Positions 10,007 through 27,551 of a stretch of 30,738 nt of DNA are shown piece by piece. The stretch is from a virus. The stretch spans positions 1-30,738 of IMG/VR virus record IMGVR_UViG_3300031787_000579; one strand, 5' to 3'. Below the pieces are notes generated by a model, which ran no database searches, was not told the origin of the DNA, and worked only from the letters and a program-made list of their open reading frames with translations. The translations under genes were made by a program, and so were the position numbers. Each line of letters opens with the position of its first letter. Position 1 is the stretch's first letter.

Positions 10007-11979
10007 TTTTAGGGTTTGATGATGCCGAGCTTAGAGCAGGTGTCAAAGAATTCAATAAAAACATGGAGCAGATGGGAAAGGACATAAGCAAAGCTTTTGA
10101 TCCTAAACCTGCCAAGAGTTTTTTTAGTGAGTTTAAAAGAGCATCATCAGATGCCTTTGGTGGTTTTGCAAAAGACTTTGCCATTGGTTCATTGGTAGCA
10201 GATGGAATTAAGGGTGCATTAAGTGCAGTTAAAGATTTCATAGCAGGATCAATACAAGCCGCCCAAGAGCAAGAAAATGCTTTAAACAATTTGGCCGTTG
10301 CACTTAAAAGAACAGGTGAATTCTCTCAACAGGCAGTAGATGACTTTTCAGCATTTGCCTCAGAACTACAGGCCACAACAGTCTATGGTGATGAATTAAT
10401 CCTATCTCAATTGGCATTGGCAAAATCTTTTGGGGCAACAAATGACCAAGCAAAAGATCTAGTTAGAGCAGCGGCAAATCTATCTGCAACATTTGGTGGG
10501 ACATTAGATGAGAATGTAGAGAAGCTAGGCAAAACACTACAAGGAAATGCAGGAAGACTTGGCCAGTATATCGGGGCAATTGGTGATCTTAGAGAGTCTC
10601 AGTTAAAGGCAGGGGATGCCATTGACATCATCAATGAGAAGTTTGCAGGTGCGGCCCAAGCACAGACCACCACTTACACAGGTACCATCACACAATTATC
10701 AAATGCAGTCTCAGATCTACAAGAGGAGCTAGGTGGTCTTGTCACAAACTCAGATTTTGTCAAAGGCAGTTTGGGTGTTTTGACTGGTGTGTTCAAAGAA
10801 CTAACCCAAGGTTTCACAGACTCAAGAATAGCTAATGAGCTTCAATCCCAGGGATTTGTTGACAGTGAGTCTGAGATCACAAGACTCTCTGAAAAGTATG
10901 CTCAATTGACTGCAGAGCTAGAAAAGAATGTGGCAGTTGTCCAAGAGGATAAAAACAAAGGTTTCTTTGCTTCATTATTCTCTTTTGATAATGCCCCATT
11001 AGCAGCTGAGAAAGTTAAAAATATCACAATTGAACTACAAAAATTAGATAAGCAGATTGAAACATCTGCACAGAAAACATCTGCCATCGGTCAACAAACA
11101 GGTGGGAAGACAGATCCAAGAGCAGATGAGGACAAAAAGGTCACTGATCAAATCCTAGCTCAAAGAAAACAATTTTATGTGGATCTGCAGGATCTAGAAA
11201 ACCAAAACACATTGGCACAAAATGAAGCTGAGATCTTGAAAAGAGCGGCAAGACAAGGCATGACTCAACAGGATTTAGTGGAGCTTCAATCTATTGAGCA
11301 GACCAAATTGGACATCCAATTTCAGGCAGAGGAAGCTAAGGCAAGACTCATAAACAATTCAGTGAATAGAAACTTAGCACTTGAAAAAGTAGGTCAACAA
11401 AAGTCATTAGCTCAAAAGAAACTAGATGCAGATCAGGTTGCTAAGTTAGAACAGTTTAAAGCACAGGAAGAACAAAAGATGCAGCAAATAAGATTTCAAG
11501 CTGCCTCAAACTTCCTCAATGCAGGGATCCTATTAACCAAACAAAACTCAAATGAGCAAAGAGCATTGGCATCTACACTTGCAGTTATGAACACCTGGCA
11601 GGCGGCATCTAATGCCCTTGCTACTAAGGCACCGTGGCCATTGCCTCAAGTCTTTGCGGCATCTGCTATTGCTCTTGGATTTGCCCAGGTGGCACAGATC
11701 AACAAAGCCAAGTTTGCAAATGGTGGTATTGTGGGAGGAAATTCTTTTGCAGGTGATCGAGTACCTGTCCAGGTAAACTCTGGGGAAATGATACTAAATA
11801 AATCACAGCAAAAAGAGCTTTTCAGCATTGCCAATGGTGGTGGATCAAGTGATGCTATTATAAACGCAATAGAAAACTTAGGGGCAAAGATTGCCTCAAT
11901 GCAGACAGTGGTTTCAATTAACAGTAGGGAAATTGCAAGGGCCGTGAGAGATGAAAGATCCTCTGGTTTTGCGGTGTAA
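9982..11979 (+). CDS. Tail tape measure protein
   Basis: A 665-residue, largely helical protein that sets tail length and is threaded through the tube. It starts VEVVLGFDDAELRAGVKEF, a usual tape measure entry, then a hydrophobic Gly/Ala-rich part around 55-90, a long coiled-coil region about 300-510, and a C-terminal motif NGGIVGGNSFAGDRVPVQVN followed by SGEMILNKSQQKELF. That NGG-GDRVPV-NSGEMILN ending is very common in tape measure proteins. At roughly 0.15 nm per residue, the usual helical rule, the tail would be about 100 nm. It starts within the chaperone extension. No lysozyme or peptidase domain is visible. Confidence 0.92.
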   Translation: MAENKVEVVLGFDDAELRAGVKEFNKNMEQMGKDISKAFDPKPAKSFFSEFKRASSDAFGGFAKDFAIGSLVADGIKGALSAVKDFIAGSIQAAQEQENALNNLAVALKRTGEFSQQAVDDFSAFASELQATTVYGDELILSQLALAKSFGATNDQAKDLVRAAANLSATFGGTLDENVEKLGKTLQGNAGRLGQYIGAIGDLRESQLKAGDAIDIINEKFAGAAQAQTTTYTGTITQLSNAVSDLQEELGGLVTNSDFVKGSLGVLTGVFKELTQGFTDSRIANELQSQGFVDSESEITRLSEKYAQLTAELEKNVAVVQEDKNKGFFASLFSFDNAPLAAEKVKNITIELQKLDKQIETSAQKTSAIGQQTGGKTDPRADEDKKVTDQILAQRKQFYVDLQDLENQNTLAQNEAEILKRAARQGMTQQDLVELQSIEQTKLDIQFQAEEAKARLINNSVNRNLALEKVGQQKSLAQKKLDADQVAKLEQFKAQEEQKMQQIRFQAASNFLNAGILLTKQNSNEQRALASTLAVMNTWQAASNALATKAPWPLPQVFAASAIALGFAQVAQINKAKFANGGIVGGNSFAGDRVPVQVNSGEMILNKSQQKELFSIANGGGSSDAIINAIENLGAKIASMQTVVSINSREIARAVRDERSSGFAV

Positions 11980-11981
11980 TT

Positions 11982-12743
11982 ATGAGTGTTAAACTTTACG
12001 CAGACAATCTAATTAAGCAGGCATTGATTTCACCATCATCAGAAAATGCACAATTTCCATCATCTAACTTAAAGGATGATCGCAGGTCTAAAGTCTTTCA
12101 ATCTACCACCACATCATGCAACATTGTTTTTGACTTTGGTGATATCAGGGAGATTGACTCAGTTTGCTTGGTTGACTCTGGGGTGGATCCTATAGGTTTC
12201 ACATCTGCCACAATACAGCTAAATAATGTTGACTCATGGATCAGTCCACCTGTTTCTCAGGTCCTCACTATTGATCCAATCAATGGGTGGGTGAATTATG
12301 ACTGGACATCGGTCCAGAGTTATAGATTTGCCAGGATCTCTTTTGTTAATACTCCTAATCCTGTTGAGGTTTCAAAGGTCTTTATAGGCAAGAGGGTAGA
12401 GCTTGAGAATAATTGCTTCACATATCCATTAAATTTTAAGCAAAACAACAATGCGGTAGTGACTAGAAACAGACTAGGTCAAAAGTTTATTGATGAGATT
12501 AATTCCCAAAAGGAAATAAGTGGATCAATCAACACAATGACCAAAGATGAGGTAGATCAGATCTTTGAGATCACAGACTATGCTTCATTCACTAGACCGA
12601 TTTGGATTAACTTTAATGGTAGTTATATCCTAAACGATGAAAACAAAATAAGTGGATATTATTATTTGAATGATGATCCTACTTTTTCAGTCCAAGCAGG
12701 AAACTATTGGAATGTTGGCCTTGCATTTATGGAAGGCACATGA
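11982..12743 (+). CDS. Distal tail-like (Dit-position) protein
   Basis: A 253-residue beta-rich protein 2 bp after the tape measure stop. N-terminal residues about 15-140 (FPSSNLKDDRRSKVFQS, IVFDFGDIREIDSVCLV, RFARISF) look like a galactose-binding/discoidin-type jelly roll: a strand order with a conserved D-F-G turn. The C-terminal about 90 residues (LNFKQNNNAVVTRNRLGQKF) resemble the belt domain of tail-tip proteins. Its place directly after the tape measure is that of Dit, the ring that joins tube to tip. The call is positional with partial pattern support. Confidence 0.55.
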   Translation: MSVKLYADNLIKQALISPSSENAQFPSSNLKDDRRSKVFQSTTTSCNIVFDFGDIREIDSVCLVDSGVDPIGFTSATIQLNNVDSWISPPVSQVLTIDPINGWVNYDWTSVQSYRFARISFVNTPNPVEVSKVFIGKRVELENNCFTYPLNFKQNNNAVVTRNRLGQKFIDEINSQKEISGSINTMTKDEVDQIFEITDYASFTRPIWINFNGSYILNDENKISGYYYLNDDPTFSVQAGNYWNVGLAFMEGT

Positions 12744-13485: not shown

Positions 13486-14325
13486 ATGGCACAAATTGAA
13501 AAGCGTGGTTTAAAAAGCAACTCAGTAGATGGATCAAAAGTACAATTCTCAAACAATGAGTCATTTAGAGCTAGAAACTTTGCAAACACATCTGATGTTT
13601 CTTTATTTAAATTAAATGCATCTGATGAGTGGGAGTTTCAGGCACTTCCAAAATACTCAAGCTCAAACATAGCAACAGAGTCATTTGTCACAGGTCAACT
13701 AGCTAACTATGTTTTAACATCTGCAATTGGTGCAGCTAGTGGAATTTGTCCACTTAATGGATCATCTAAGATTGACTCTACTTATTTGCCTAGCTACGTA
13801 GATGATGTTGAGGAGTATGTAAACCTAGCAGGTTTCCCAGTCACTGGTGAAACTGGAAAAATCTATGTTGCCTTAGATACAAACAAAACTTATCGGTGGT
13901 CTGGATCTGCCTATGTTGAAATCTCTGCAGGTCCATCCTCTACTGATGCGGTCCCAGAGGGATCTCTTAACCTTTATTTCACAGATGCAAGAGCAAAGAC
14001 TGCAGCGGTAGTTGACTCAATGGCAGGATCTGAAACAGACCAAGCACCATCAGTTTCATCTGTTAAGACATTCATTGAAAACCAATCTGCAGACATCAAT
14101 GTGCAAACATTTACATTGAGTGCAGGGGATGTCACAAATGGTTATATTGACCTAGCATTTGAAGCAGAGGATGTGATTGAAGTCACACCTAAGGGATTTC
14201 CACCACAACATCCTGGTGATGACTACACTTTAAGTGTTGTTTCATCAGTCACAAGATTAACATTTGCAGGGGACATGTTGTCACTTATCGCAGGTGATAA
14301 ACTTAAGGTAGCTTATAGCATATGA
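13486..14325 (+). CDS. Tail fibre protein, paralogue of 4331-5641
   Basis: A 279-residue protein. Its N-terminus MAQIEKRGLKSNSVDGSKVQ matches MAQQLQKKFIGNNQVDGSKI of the gene at 4331, including the following FKLNASDEWEF-type segment, so both share an anchor domain. The segment SFRARNFANTSDVSLFKLNA is a known entry pattern of phage fibres. The middle has YVNLAGFPVTGETGKIYVAL (a fibre domain with YRWSGSAYVEI) and GSLNLYFTDARAK. The C-terminal about 70 residues are the GD-type beta domain. It overlaps the next gene by 4 bp. Confidence 0.78.
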   Translation: MAQIEKRGLKSNSVDGSKVQFSNNESFRARNFANTSDVSLFKLNASDEWEFQALPKYSSSNIATESFVTGQLANYVLTSAIGAASGICPLNGSSKIDSTYLPSYVDDVEEYVNLAGFPVTGETGKIYVALDTNKTYRWSGSAYVEISAGPSSTDAVPEGSLNLYFTDARAKTAAVVDSMAGSETDQAPSVSSVKTFIENQSADINVQTFTLSAGDVTNGYIDLAFEAEDVIEVTPKGFPPQHPGDDYTLSVVSSVTRLTFAGDMLSLIAGDKLKVAYSI

Positions 14326-24163: not shown

Positions 24164-24335
24164 GTTTGCCACCTTGTTTAAAATAATGTTTGGTAAAATA
24201 GTCCAATGGTTTCATGCCGTCAATAAGGTTTGATTTTTTTATACACTTGCATTTAGTCTGACTAACTACCTGATCATCATTGTAGTTAAGCTCATAATAT
24301 TCTCTGCACTTATGGCATCTAATTAGTTCAGACAT
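24084..24335 (-). CDS. Small zinc-ribbon protein
   Basis: An 83-residue protein. C8-x2-C11 (CHKC) and C29-x-C31 (CKC) are spaced like a zinc ribbon. The rest is polar and K/Q/S-rich. The start overlaps the stop of the PP-loop gene by one base. The last 80 bp run inside the Erf gene in another frame. It is likely a cytoplasmic nucleic-acid or protein binder; no family recognised. Confidence 0.55.
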   Translation of the reverse strand: MSELIRCHKCREYYELNYNDDQVVSQTKCKCIKKSNLIDGMKPLDYFTKHYFKQGGKHEKSFSENQRNPKTSKISTQGINSKD

Positions 24336-25069
24336 TATTTTTCCTCACAAAAAATACCACATTCGAAATTCATATTTTTTAAAGGTCTTCCCTTTGCGTC
24401 TGGTGATAACTCATCTAAGAAAATTCTTTTGCCTTTATATGTTACCAATTTTGTGCCTATTCTTTTGGATTGCTCAACCCTTAATGAAAAGATTTCAGGG
24501 TGTTTACTTCTAACCAAATTCCAGTATGTGGCACTTGTTGACTTTACACATCCAATGCAATTAGCATTTGGATAACCAAGACTATAGATCTCTGGCAGTT
24601 TTATGTTTGCCTTTTTAATTATTTCAAAACAATCTGTCTTGGTTATTTTAGCATCAATTAAAACAGGCAAAACATTCTCTCTCTCTCTCTCTATAAAGCG
24701 TTTATGCCTAGCAGCTTCATCAAAAGTAAATCCCAAAACATGAAAATCAGGTTTGTTTTTTTCTTCCCATATTTGCCGAGCTTTCTTTTTTAATTCAAAG
24801 GTGCATGGTGCCCCCATAACACCAGACATATATTTTCTTTTTTCCCAGACATCATAAGCAGACATACTTGGAAAAGCGGGGTTTGTTGCAATTTCAATTT
24901 TATGCCCTAACCACTTTTCTACATCTAAAAGAAATCTTCTATTGTCTTCATGCTCTTCCATAACAGGGTTGTTAATAATCCTTATTTCATGGTCATTACC
25001 ATAAACTTCAATAGTTTTTTTCGCTGCCACAGCACTAGCTGCACCACATGAAAACCAAACTGCAATCAT
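24335..25069 (-). CDS. PP-loop ATP pyrophosphatase, PAPS reductase-like
   Basis: A 244-residue protein. The N-terminus VWFSCGAASAVAA is a PP-loop (S7-C-G9-x-x-S12) of the PAPS reductase/adenylyl-activating type. GAPCTFELKKKA (C89) and NANCIGCVKS (C171, C174) plus the ending ECGIFC suggest a metal or Fe-S site. Phage versions may serve in sulphur metabolism or base/backbone modification; DndC, which belongs to this superfamily, works in DNA phosphorothioation, but no dnd partners are seen. A (TC) dinucleotide tract lies within it. It is in the leftward early unit. Confidence 0.72.
   Translation of the reverse strand: MIAVWFSCGAASAVAAKKTIEVYGNDHEIRIINNPVMEEHEDNRRFLLDVEKWLGHKIEIATNPAFPSMSAYDVWEKRKYMSGVMGAPCTFELKKKARQIWEEKNKPDFHVLGFTFDEAARHKRFIERERENVLPVLIDAKITKTDCFEIIKKANIKLPEIYSLGYPNANCIGCVKSTSATYWNLVRSKHPEIFSLRVEQSKRIGTKLVTYKGKRIFLDELSPDAKGRPLKNMNFECGIFCEEK
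24676..24692. repeat. (TC)8.5 dinucleotide tract inside PP-loop gene
   Basis: A perfect TC run of 17 bp, read as GA repeats on the coding strand (ERERE, residues 127-131). Runs of this length can gain or lose units by slippage, which would break or restore the frame. Whether it varies is unknown. Confidence 0.9.
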
Positions 25070-25701: not shown

Positions 25702-25992
25702 TTAAGATCCTTTAAATTCAAAGTTTGTTAGTTCTAATATCGCCTCATTTTCTACTTTTCTTAAATCGAACCACTCATTTAAAATCTTGTATTTAGCAAA
25801 CTTTTCATGCATGTGTTTTTCAATTAACCTATAATTGCTGACATAAACAATTTTAACCATTTGTATTTTAAATGGAATAACTGTGGCAATGTGGACAATT
25901 CTCTTGGTCTTATATTTGGTTAATCCAATCTTATAAAACTCTCTACCTGATGAGTCTGCAAACTTAATGATGTAAACATATCCTAAATTCAT
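25702..25992 (-). CDS. T5orf172 / MUG113-type GIY-YIG-like protein
   Basis: A 96-residue protein with GYVYIIKF at 4-11, FYKIGLTK at 19-26, then a basic R-x-x-x-I segment, a middle E-K-H-M-H-E-K-F helix (about 58-66) and NEWFDL at about 71-76. This order (VYI...YKIG.T...R, E..H..F, EWF) is the T5orf172 domain, a relative of the GIY-YIG nuclease fold. Activity is not certain, as phage members are often small regulators. It is the first gene of the leftward unit, 594 bp from the divergent rightward genes. Confidence 0.72.
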   Translation of the reverse strand: MNLGYVYIIKFADSSGREFYKIGLTKYKTKRIVHIATVIPFKIQMVKIVYVSNYRLIEKHMHEKFAKYKILNEWFDLRKVENEAILELTNFEFKGS

Positions 25993-26119: not shown

Positions 26120-26148
26120 TTGACACAGAAAAAGTGGGTTGAGATAAG
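26120..26148 (+). promoter_or_regulatory. Sigma70-like promoter candidate
   Basis: A perfect TTGACA (26120-26125), 17-bp spacing and GATAAG (26143-26148), 4 of 6 with TATAAT. The -10 touches the G-rich tract. It would transcribe rightward across the structured region toward 26586, giving a long 5' leader of about 430 nt. Confidence 0.35.
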
Positions 26149-26165
26149 GGAGGGGTGGGGGAGGG
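26148..26165 (+). other. G-quadruplex motif with single-base loops
   Basis: Four G tracts GGG (26148-26150), GGGG (26152-26155), GGGGG (26157-26161) and GGG (26163-26165), each separated by one base (A, T, A). One-base loops give the most stable parallel G4 forms. It stands out in an AT-rich genome; an extra GGG lies upstream at 26136-26138. Confidence 0.75.
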
Positions 26166-26220
26166 ATTCTTAATTCCCCAAAGATCTACTTAATAAACCA
26201 CCTACTCAATTATAAAGATC

Positions 26221-26247: not shown

Positions 26248-26264
26248 ACTTTCTTAGTGTCTTG

Positions 26265-26312
26265 GTCACTACTTGCCCCACAGGGGTGAGGACATGATGT
26301 CCGAATAGTGAC
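26265..26312 (+). ncRNA. Candidate three-way-junction structured RNA
   Basis: Outer stem GTCACTA (26265-26271) pairs with TAGTGAC (26306-26312). Inside are two hairpins: CCCC/GGGG (26276-26279, 26283-26286; loop ACA), extendable by T-T-G/T-G-A wobble pairs to 7 bp, and GGACA/TGTCC (26290-26294, 26298-26302; loop TGA). GAA (26303-26305) is left single stranded in the junction. All stems are perfect in the core. The fold is on the plus strand; the minus strand would also fold. Confidence 0.5.
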
Positions 26313-26509
26313 GAGAAAATGCACAGGATGTGAATAGTCTTGTAACACAAAACTGAAAAGTTAAAACAAAACTTTCTTCACTTAAGGATAGGTCTATCTA
26401 ATTTGGAGATGGTCATCATCTGATTAATTAAGTTGATCATTTAAGTTTATTCATCTAGCTTTATTTCAGGAATGAAATTCAAATGAATGTCAAACTCTGG
26501 ATCAATTCC

Positions 26510-26539
26510 TGGTGGTCATCTTAATCCTTTTGGTGGTCA
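26510..26539. repeat. TGGTGGTCA direct repeats (iteron-like)
   Basis: TGGTGGTCA occurs at 26510-26518 and 26531-26539, 21 bp apart, two helical turns. The core TGGTCA also occurs at 26263-26268 and 26410-26415 on the same strand. They may bind an initiator or regulator just before the first rightward gene. Confidence 0.4.
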
Positions 26540-26585
26540 CCCCTTTTTTCTTTTCATATCTAAATTTTATTGAAATCCTATCTCT

Positions 26586-27551
26586 ATGAAGAAAGTAGAG
26601 GAGCATGAGCTAATAGCTAAAATCAAAGAGCTTCATAAAGAACATGGGAAGACACCTACACTAAAGGAGTTCTCAGAGTTCTACTCTACATCTACAGTCC
26701 ACAAGCATGGATGGAATAATCTAATTAAAAAAGCAGGACTCACACCTAACATGACACATGTCCCAGGTCCTGATCTATTGGTCCATAAATGGGAAGCTAG
26801 AATTCTCTTCTTAGATATAGAGACATCGGCATTATTAGTCAGGACTTATGGGCTTTATAATCAAAACATACCTATCCAAAACATAGTAGAGGATTGGTCC
26901 TTACTTTCTTATTGTGCCAAGTTTAATGATGATGAGACAGTCTATTATTTAGATCAGAGATATGCCCAAGACTACACAGATGACAGACAGCTAGTGGAAG
27001 GGATCCATGACCTTATAAGGCAGGCAGACATTATCGTGGCCCACAACATTGATTTTGACTGGGGAAAACTCAATGCCAAGTTTATAAAGTATGAACTAGA
27101 TCCACTACATCCCAGGCAGATATGCACTTTAAAGATGACTCGTAAATTAATGAAGAAAGGCATCACATCTAAGAAATTAGAGTTTCTTGCTAAGTGGTTA
27201 GGATGCACACCAAAGGAAAGTCACGCAAAGTTTCCTGGTGGTAAGCTATGGGATGAATGTCTTAAAGGTAACCAGGAAGCCTGGGCAGAATGTGAGGTCT
27301 ACAATCGTGGTGATGTGACCACCTTGAATGAAATTTTTTGGAAACTTGCAAGATATGATCAAAGCATTAATTTTTCCATCTATGAGCATAAGAATAAGTG
27401 CATTTGTGGATCAGATCACTTCATTAGAGATGGTTATAAGGTGACAAACTCATCCAAAAAAATGAGGTTTAGATGTGGTGCATGTGGCAAAGTTTATACG
27501 GCCAGAATAGAGGAGCTTCCTACTAAACTTAAGGCAGGATTGTTTCAATAA
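26586..27551 (+). CDS. HNH-repeat / DEDD exonuclease / zinc-finger fusion
   Basis: A 321-residue protein with three parts. Residues about 8-55 (LHKEHGKTPTLKEFSEFYS, then HGWNNLIKKAGLTP) match the homing-endonuclease-associated HNH repeat, a DNA-binding helical unit. Residues about 70-265 are an RNase H-like 3'-5' exonuclease: ILFLDIETS (D77, E79), VAHNIDFDWGKLN (N154, D156) and YNRGDVTTL (third Asp). Residues about 272-305 hold CICGSD...CGACGKVY, a zinc ribbon. ATG 26586 has no good ribosome binding site. It may act in DNA processing or repair, an early gene in the rightward unit. The domain combination is unusual to me but known from phages. Confidence 0.78.
   Translation: MKKVEEHELIAKIKELHKEHGKTPTLKEFSEFYSTSTVHKHGWNNLIKKAGLTPNMTHVPGPDLLVHKWEARILFLDIETSALLVRTYGLYNQNIPIQNIVEDWSLLSYCAKFNDDETVYYLDQRYAQDYTDDRQLVEGIHDLIRQADIIVAHNIDFDWGKLNAKFIKYELDPLHPRQICTLKMTRKLMKKGITSKKLEFLAKWLGCTPKESHAKFPGGKLWDECLKGNQEAWAECEVYNRGDVTTLNEIFWKLARYDQSINFSIYEHKNKCICGSDHFIRDGYKVTNSSKKMRFRCGACGKVYTARIEELPTKLKAGLFQ

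Follow-up and report, generated by a model that had tools for sequence, protein, structure and literature searches.

What kind of element lies in the non-coding region between the divergent early genes of this virus, and what might it do there? We addressed this within a window of 30,738 nt, which is the whole stretch of DNA analysed (positions 1 to 30,738 of IMG/VR record IMGVR_UViG_3300031787_000579). An initial annotation of the sequence had described an outer 7-bp stem, two inner hairpins and a free GAA, about 270 bases ahead of the rightward unit and downstream of a TTGACA promoter-like element, and had proposed a novel structured RNA. All of these parts were found in place by direct reading and with RNAfold, the hexamer is present, and 270 bases separate the three-way junction from the ATG at 26586 (Table 1). 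The extent originally reported, 26261-26315 with a 7-bp outer stem, was correct as to the parts it named but too small for the conserved unit, in which the outer helix continues beyond a bulged G as P0 and to which hairpin P4 and the tail UAGUCUU also belong.

Table 1. Positions of the RNA element, the features of its putative leader and the flanking genes in the window.
Feature	Position	Strand	Basis or remarks
TTGACA, -35-like hexamer	26120..26125	+	direct reading
AGATAA, 16 nt after TTGACA	26142-26147	+	direct reading
G-rich run GGGAGGGGTGGGGGAGGG, possible start region or operator	26148..26166	+	direct reading
Three-way-junction RNA	26261..26315	+	direct reading, RNAfold, covariation, homologues
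P0, 3-bp extension of outer helix	CUU 26261-26263 with GAG 26313-26315	+	below bulged G26264
P1, outer stem, 7 bp	26265-26271 with 26306-26312	+	
P2, first inner hairpin	26272-26279 with 26283-26290	+	two G-U pairs
P3, second inner hairpin	26291-26294 with 26298-26301	+	loop UGA
Unpaired junction GAA	26303-26305	+	direct reading
Hairpin P4, CACA-GGA-UGUG	26322-26332	+	covaries on MAFFT alignment
Conserved single-stranded tail UAGUCUU	26335..26341	+	same or similar in L002, L166 and bacterial copy L233
Intrinsic-terminator-like hairpin (10 bp, 11-nt loop) and U run	26511..26549	+	between the RNA and the first gene
First gene of rightward unit, DNA polymerase exonuclease subunit-like	26586..27551	+	phrog_403, E 2.5e-65; Pfam HNH_repeat, RNase_H_2
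First gene of leftward unit, T5orf172/MUG113 domain protein	25702..25992	-	Pfam

The minimum-energy fold returned by RNAfold for 26261-26315 was exactly the three-way junction (-21.7 kcal/mol; stability z -2.83, equalled by 2 of 200 shuffles), which ranks in the top three of the 50-nt segments of the window by stability. When shuffled 30.7-kb windows were loosely searched for three-way junctions, however, each gave 1-4. Because similar shapes are common in shuffled sequence, the fold by itself is weak evidence and the shape is not proof. No tRNA or tmRNA gene was found in the window. Its leftward early unit further encoded a phosphoadenosine phosphosulfate reductase-like gene (24335-25069, phrog_424).

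Homologous copies were found in several related phages. Two of the lineages (L001/L002 and G177/G196) were reached through protein genes with the RNA motif unused. L001 and L002, whose exonuclease-like proteins are 97% and 88% identical to that of the window, were reached via the gene at 26586-27551, and both keep the element. A scan with a tail protein gave 38 related phage contigs, among which G177 and G196, identical to each other at the element, carry it with 55 bits. No match was obtained in most of these 38 contigs, many of which are fragments; some carry structured leaders of other kinds. G001 was likewise without a match, the corresponding region being missing from this contig. L010 and L013 were found with a sequence pattern, which partly fixed the letters that they share; the letters of L001, L002, G177 and G196 carry no such constraint. 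With a relaxed pattern (CATGATG..CGAAT..GAGAAA) the matches in viral contigs other than L007, L008 and L010 lacked the fold and were rejected. In the window, L002, L010, G002 (the record of L013) and G196/G177 the element lies on the operon strand, with the leftward early genes on one side and the rightward early operon on the other. The RNA is followed by an HNH gene in three phages (L010, L013 and G196), whereas the window and L002 have none there, so that this gene is not a fixed partner.

The comparison of these copies, not the fold alone, decides the matter and settles selection as RNA. Compensatory change in homologues had been set beforehand as the test, and it was strongly passed. An alignment of the six phage copies made with MAFFT, unguided by structure (alignment A8), had 91% of its cells paired, and 17 of the 28 pairs were changed on both sides in 33 cells, against 8.2 pairs and 10.2 cells (10 +/- 3) in shuffles and 5 or fewer double-sided changes in a partner-sliding control. 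RNAalifold, run on the alignment without a supplied structure, recovered the same helices with 17 double-changed pairs. Extending the set to 24 phage and bacterial copies (see below) gave double-sided changes in 22 of 28 pairs and 122 cells, in an alignment fitted to the model. The outer stem GUCACUA/UAGUGAC of the window becomes GUUUCCA/UGGAAAC in L002, where the closing pairs of the second inner hairpin have also changed together, and pairing in the lower P1 of L013 is restored in a shifted register (GGU-G-GAC with GUC-ACC). The bulged G and the 3-bp helix below it are kept across the phage copies, and one stem pair of P4 occurs in four forms (AU, CG, GC and UA). Among the non-Watson-Crick pairs of the phage alignment, read on the plus strand, 16 were G-U and 4 A-C, indicating that the folding molecule is the RNA of the plus strand, i.e. 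the operon strand. Judged from these aligned sequences, the structure is real and selected as RNA.

No Rfam family matched the element or the scanned copies at curated gathering thresholds, in agreement with the initial annotation, which had claimed no known riboswitch or ribozyme match. In a relaxed scan the only match overlapping the three-way junction was a chance one to a snoRNA, located at the edge of the junction and scoring far below threshold; SIB_RNA, with 18.9 bits where 56 are needed, was attributed to chance. We also considered the hammerhead ribozyme, which has in common with the element a three-way junction, UGA before and GAA after one stem, and possible tandem G-A pairs. The element, however, lacks the CUGAUGA core and the UH cleavage site and its P1 closing pair is reversed; with the CUGAUGA / GAAA / UH core absent and no Rfam hammerhead match, this candidate was rejected. 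Covariation and the absence of an Rfam match thus both support the proposal of a novel structured RNA, and we consider it very likely that the element represents a real RNA family absent from Rfam.

Relatives of the element are not restricted to phages. A covariance-model search was carried out with model R2, built from phage copies only and including P4. Of 144 Bdellovibrionia genomes, 8 contained matches, 17 in total (best E 1.7e-9), with as many as 8 copies in a single genome; 138 genomes of another class gave 0 matches. An earlier pattern scan of genome contigs had given 22 matches, about chance level, and those outside one Bdellovibrionaceae bin reached about 14 bits or less with R2 and were discarded. 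The best bacterial copies match the P4 region of phage L010 nearly letter by letter (AACAACC-NGGA-NGGGCGKUAG, K = G/U, N = any). With respect to genes, the bacterial copies lie upstream, downstream or antisense without a rule. Related tail proteins were found in two Bdellovibrionia genomes, one of them convincing (E 1.8e-28). Exonuclease homologues were not found in the Bdellovibrionia genomes at E 1e-8. The occurrence of tail-protein relatives and RNA relatives in the same class suggests that the phage infects Bdellovibrio-class bacteria.

Repeats and other elements were also noted in the bacterial genomes. Genome G120 (L244-L251) contained 8 copies of a non-coding repeat of about 200-265 nt, more than 90% identical and containing the RNA, often at contig ends, which is possibly a mobile or multi-copy RNA gene. 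The marine Bdellovibrionaceae bin G017 (L227 1440-1700; L085-L087) contained palindromic repeats GGACTCTTTAAAACGC...GCG...GTTTTAAAGAGTC, oriented both ways, to which a covarying mini hairpin CRC-NNN-GYG is added. Transposase genes adjoin two weaker bacterial copies (L254 3208-4419, IS110 family; L255 226-1395, rve type), while a general transposase link was ruled out, as other bacterial copies have no transposase nearby. A group II intron fragment (L253 7586-7729, Rfam RF02003) lies about 5.8 kb from the RNA copy of genome G064. A different dispersed intergenic element (L095-L116) was present in 14 of 144 Bdellovibrionia genomes and consists of a hairpin AAAAATAGC-AGGA-TGCTATTTTT, then GCCCC-GAA-GGGG, then TTGAGGGC-AGGA-GCCCGAA; its pattern read backwards gave no match in the Bdellovibrionia genomes. 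Its row of GGA-loop hairpins suggests candidate CsrA sites.

Upstream of the element, the window, L002, L010 and L013 share a TTGACA-like hexamer (TTGACT in L013) about 100-140 nt from the element, followed after 22 nt by a purine/G-rich run. The hexamer and this run suggest that the element is part of a 5' leader, predicted to be that of the rightward early operon, and the site at 26120-26125 is a putative promoter. A consensus promoter scan of the window did not list this site, and TTGACA was not seen at the corresponding distance in G196. The G-rich run is paired at the same place in L002 and L010, as two G5-G6 runs that are separated by one turn of DNA, directly follow the promoter-like site and might be an operator, and L013 has a weaker purine run. 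Downstream, the terminator-like hairpin is present in the window, L001 and L002, with three pairs changed on both sides in L002; it was not found by scan in the leaders of L010 or L013, nor near the G196 copy.

Other structured leaders occur in related phages. That of L043 (1175-1235) has the same divergent place and comprises a GCUGCACC/GGUGCAGC helix, a GGCC-GCAA-GGCC hairpin and a terminator-like stem CCCCGACCUAG / CUAGGCGGGG with U run that overlaps the GCUGCACC/GGUGCAGC helix; from its sequence it looks like an attenuator. Yet another structured leader was seen in G183 (about 1327-1714), G170 (about 11970-12485) and G178 (about 13535-14050), with a covarying stem near its start (CCGCC/GGCGG, CCGUC/GACGG, CGGCC/GGUCG); CUCCGAAAAGCA and CUCACCAAAAAGCA are common to the G170 and G183 leaders.

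Our preferred reading, for which we would claim somewhat less than an even chance, is that of a conserved structured RNA in the early-operon leader which binds a host factor and changes transcription of the early operon. The operon would be transcribed from the TTGACA site with the element in its 5' leader, the RNA would fold during leader synthesis and bind a host factor conserved in the hosts of the phage, and this binding would alter early-operon transcription, perhaps through an effect on termination. In the single most likely mode, RNA polymerase would be helped past terminators such as that at 26511-26549, as by the put RNAs of phage HK022. The put RNAs are cis-acting and located downstream of early promoters, with putR about 270 nt from the start site (PMC9378689). 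This shared place and presumed cis action, the covarying RNA on the operon strand that is syntenic between early genes, the TTGACA upstream in four contigs, the terminator-like hairpin that follows in the lineage of the window and the terminator-ending leader of L043 at the same place are all in favour of a leader of the antitermination type. With about 70 nt in an early-operon leader downstream of a (here sequence-predicted) promoter-like site, the element resembles put, which needs no phage protein (PMC9378689), and cis antitermination by the element is proposed by analogy with it. The two differ in architecture: put is built from two stem-loops, of which stem I contains a triplex, while the element is a closed three-way junction with a separate hairpin, and its covarying P1 encloses what would be tandem stem-loops without an enclosing helix in put. 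Moreover, put is a feature of E. coli lambdoid phages, and the element occurs outside this group. Against a cis mechanism of this type stand the phage leaders in which the terminator was not found, the few terminators further along the operons, the ambiguous single-sequence folding of the whole leader and the fact that no alternative antiterminator pairing was identified in it; the bacterial relatives, in no fixed relation to genes, are also unlike a cis element. We regard cis antitermination as possible, with roughly one chance in its favour for two against.

The bacterial relatives show no attachment to particular genes, which makes a trans-acting RNA almost as likely as a cis leader, though unlikely in its own right. 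Such a stand-alone RNA would be made from the early promoter, end at the 26511 terminator and mimic or sponge a host RNA-binding protein, for example CsrA via the P4 GGA loop. The dispersed, multi-copy bacterial relatives are consistent with it, as are the GGA loop of P4, retained in all six phage rows despite the covarying stem, the frequent AGGA or UGGA in P3 and P4 of the bacterial copies and the presence of csrA in 135 of 144 Bdellovibrionia genomes. The P4 loop CAGGAUG is identical to the CsrB repeat, and the two GGA hairpins frequent in bacterial relatives are reminiscent of CsrB/RsmZ-type RNAs. The P3 loop of the phages, however, is always UGA, and two bacterial copies (L231 and L233) have CGA in P4, so that what the copies have in common is an NGA loop and not a CsrA site, and CsrA binding through P4 is possible but weakened. 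Classic Csr sponges moreover carry many GGA loop motifs, for which the one GGA loop per phage unit is too few, and the junction, which likewise distinguishes the element from CsrB/RsmZ-type RNAs as does the lack of an Rfam match, is conserved beyond the needs of a hairpin sponge. Another structured RNA of the same bacterial class, the merRNA of Bdellovibrio bacteriovorus, has been proposed as a reservoir or sponge (PMC3627812). It holds a c-di-GMP riboswitch, whereas the Rfam scans found no riboswitch in the element or the scanned copies.

The near-identical G120 copies and the several related G017 palindromes in both orientations might also indicate a REP- or MITE-like dispersed palindromic repeat that came to lie in the leader by chance and serves no phage function. 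We consider this improbable, as selfish repeats are not expected to hold position, while phage lineages with capsid proteins only about 39-46% identical each have a single copy, with compensated stems, in the same position and no second copy was found within the window. A ligand-sensing riboswitch or attenuator switching the downstream terminator would fit the compact junction, the invariant unpaired letters and, in the lineage of the window, the covarying terminator-like hairpin that follows; given the missing terminator in L010 and L013, the lack of a competing pairing or a riboswitch match and the absence of a common gene set downstream of the bacterial copies, it is very unlikely. Least probable is a replication element (an RNA primer or a single-strand DNA origin structure), which the divergent non-coding region between replication and recombination genes might suggest, as the strand-specific G-U pairs indicate RNA, the bacterial copies are scattered and iteron-like repeats were not seen in passing. 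Among the functions suggested initially, an origin structure acting as DNA is accordingly the less likely one, and the candidates left are a small RNA and a leader that binds protein or acts as an attenuator.

To our knowledge, very few structured phage leaders act without a phage protein, the HK022 put RNAs being the textbook case. Strong covariation and relatives in the chromosomes of the host class, which is suggested rather than proven, make the element a candidate second family of this kind. It is conceivable, though we would not call it probable, that this RNA class is common to Bdellovibrio-class predators and related phages and binds a host machine, either RNA polymerase or a global RNA-binding protein, and that in the early leader of the phages it serves as a protein-free antiterminator or, by mimicry, captures the host factor. 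If true, a second protein-free leader family outside lambdoid phages would provide a system for the control of polymerase by nascent RNA or for the capture of a host regulator and, should the host assignment prove right, an entry point to gene regulation in the little-studied phages of Bdellovibrio-like predators.
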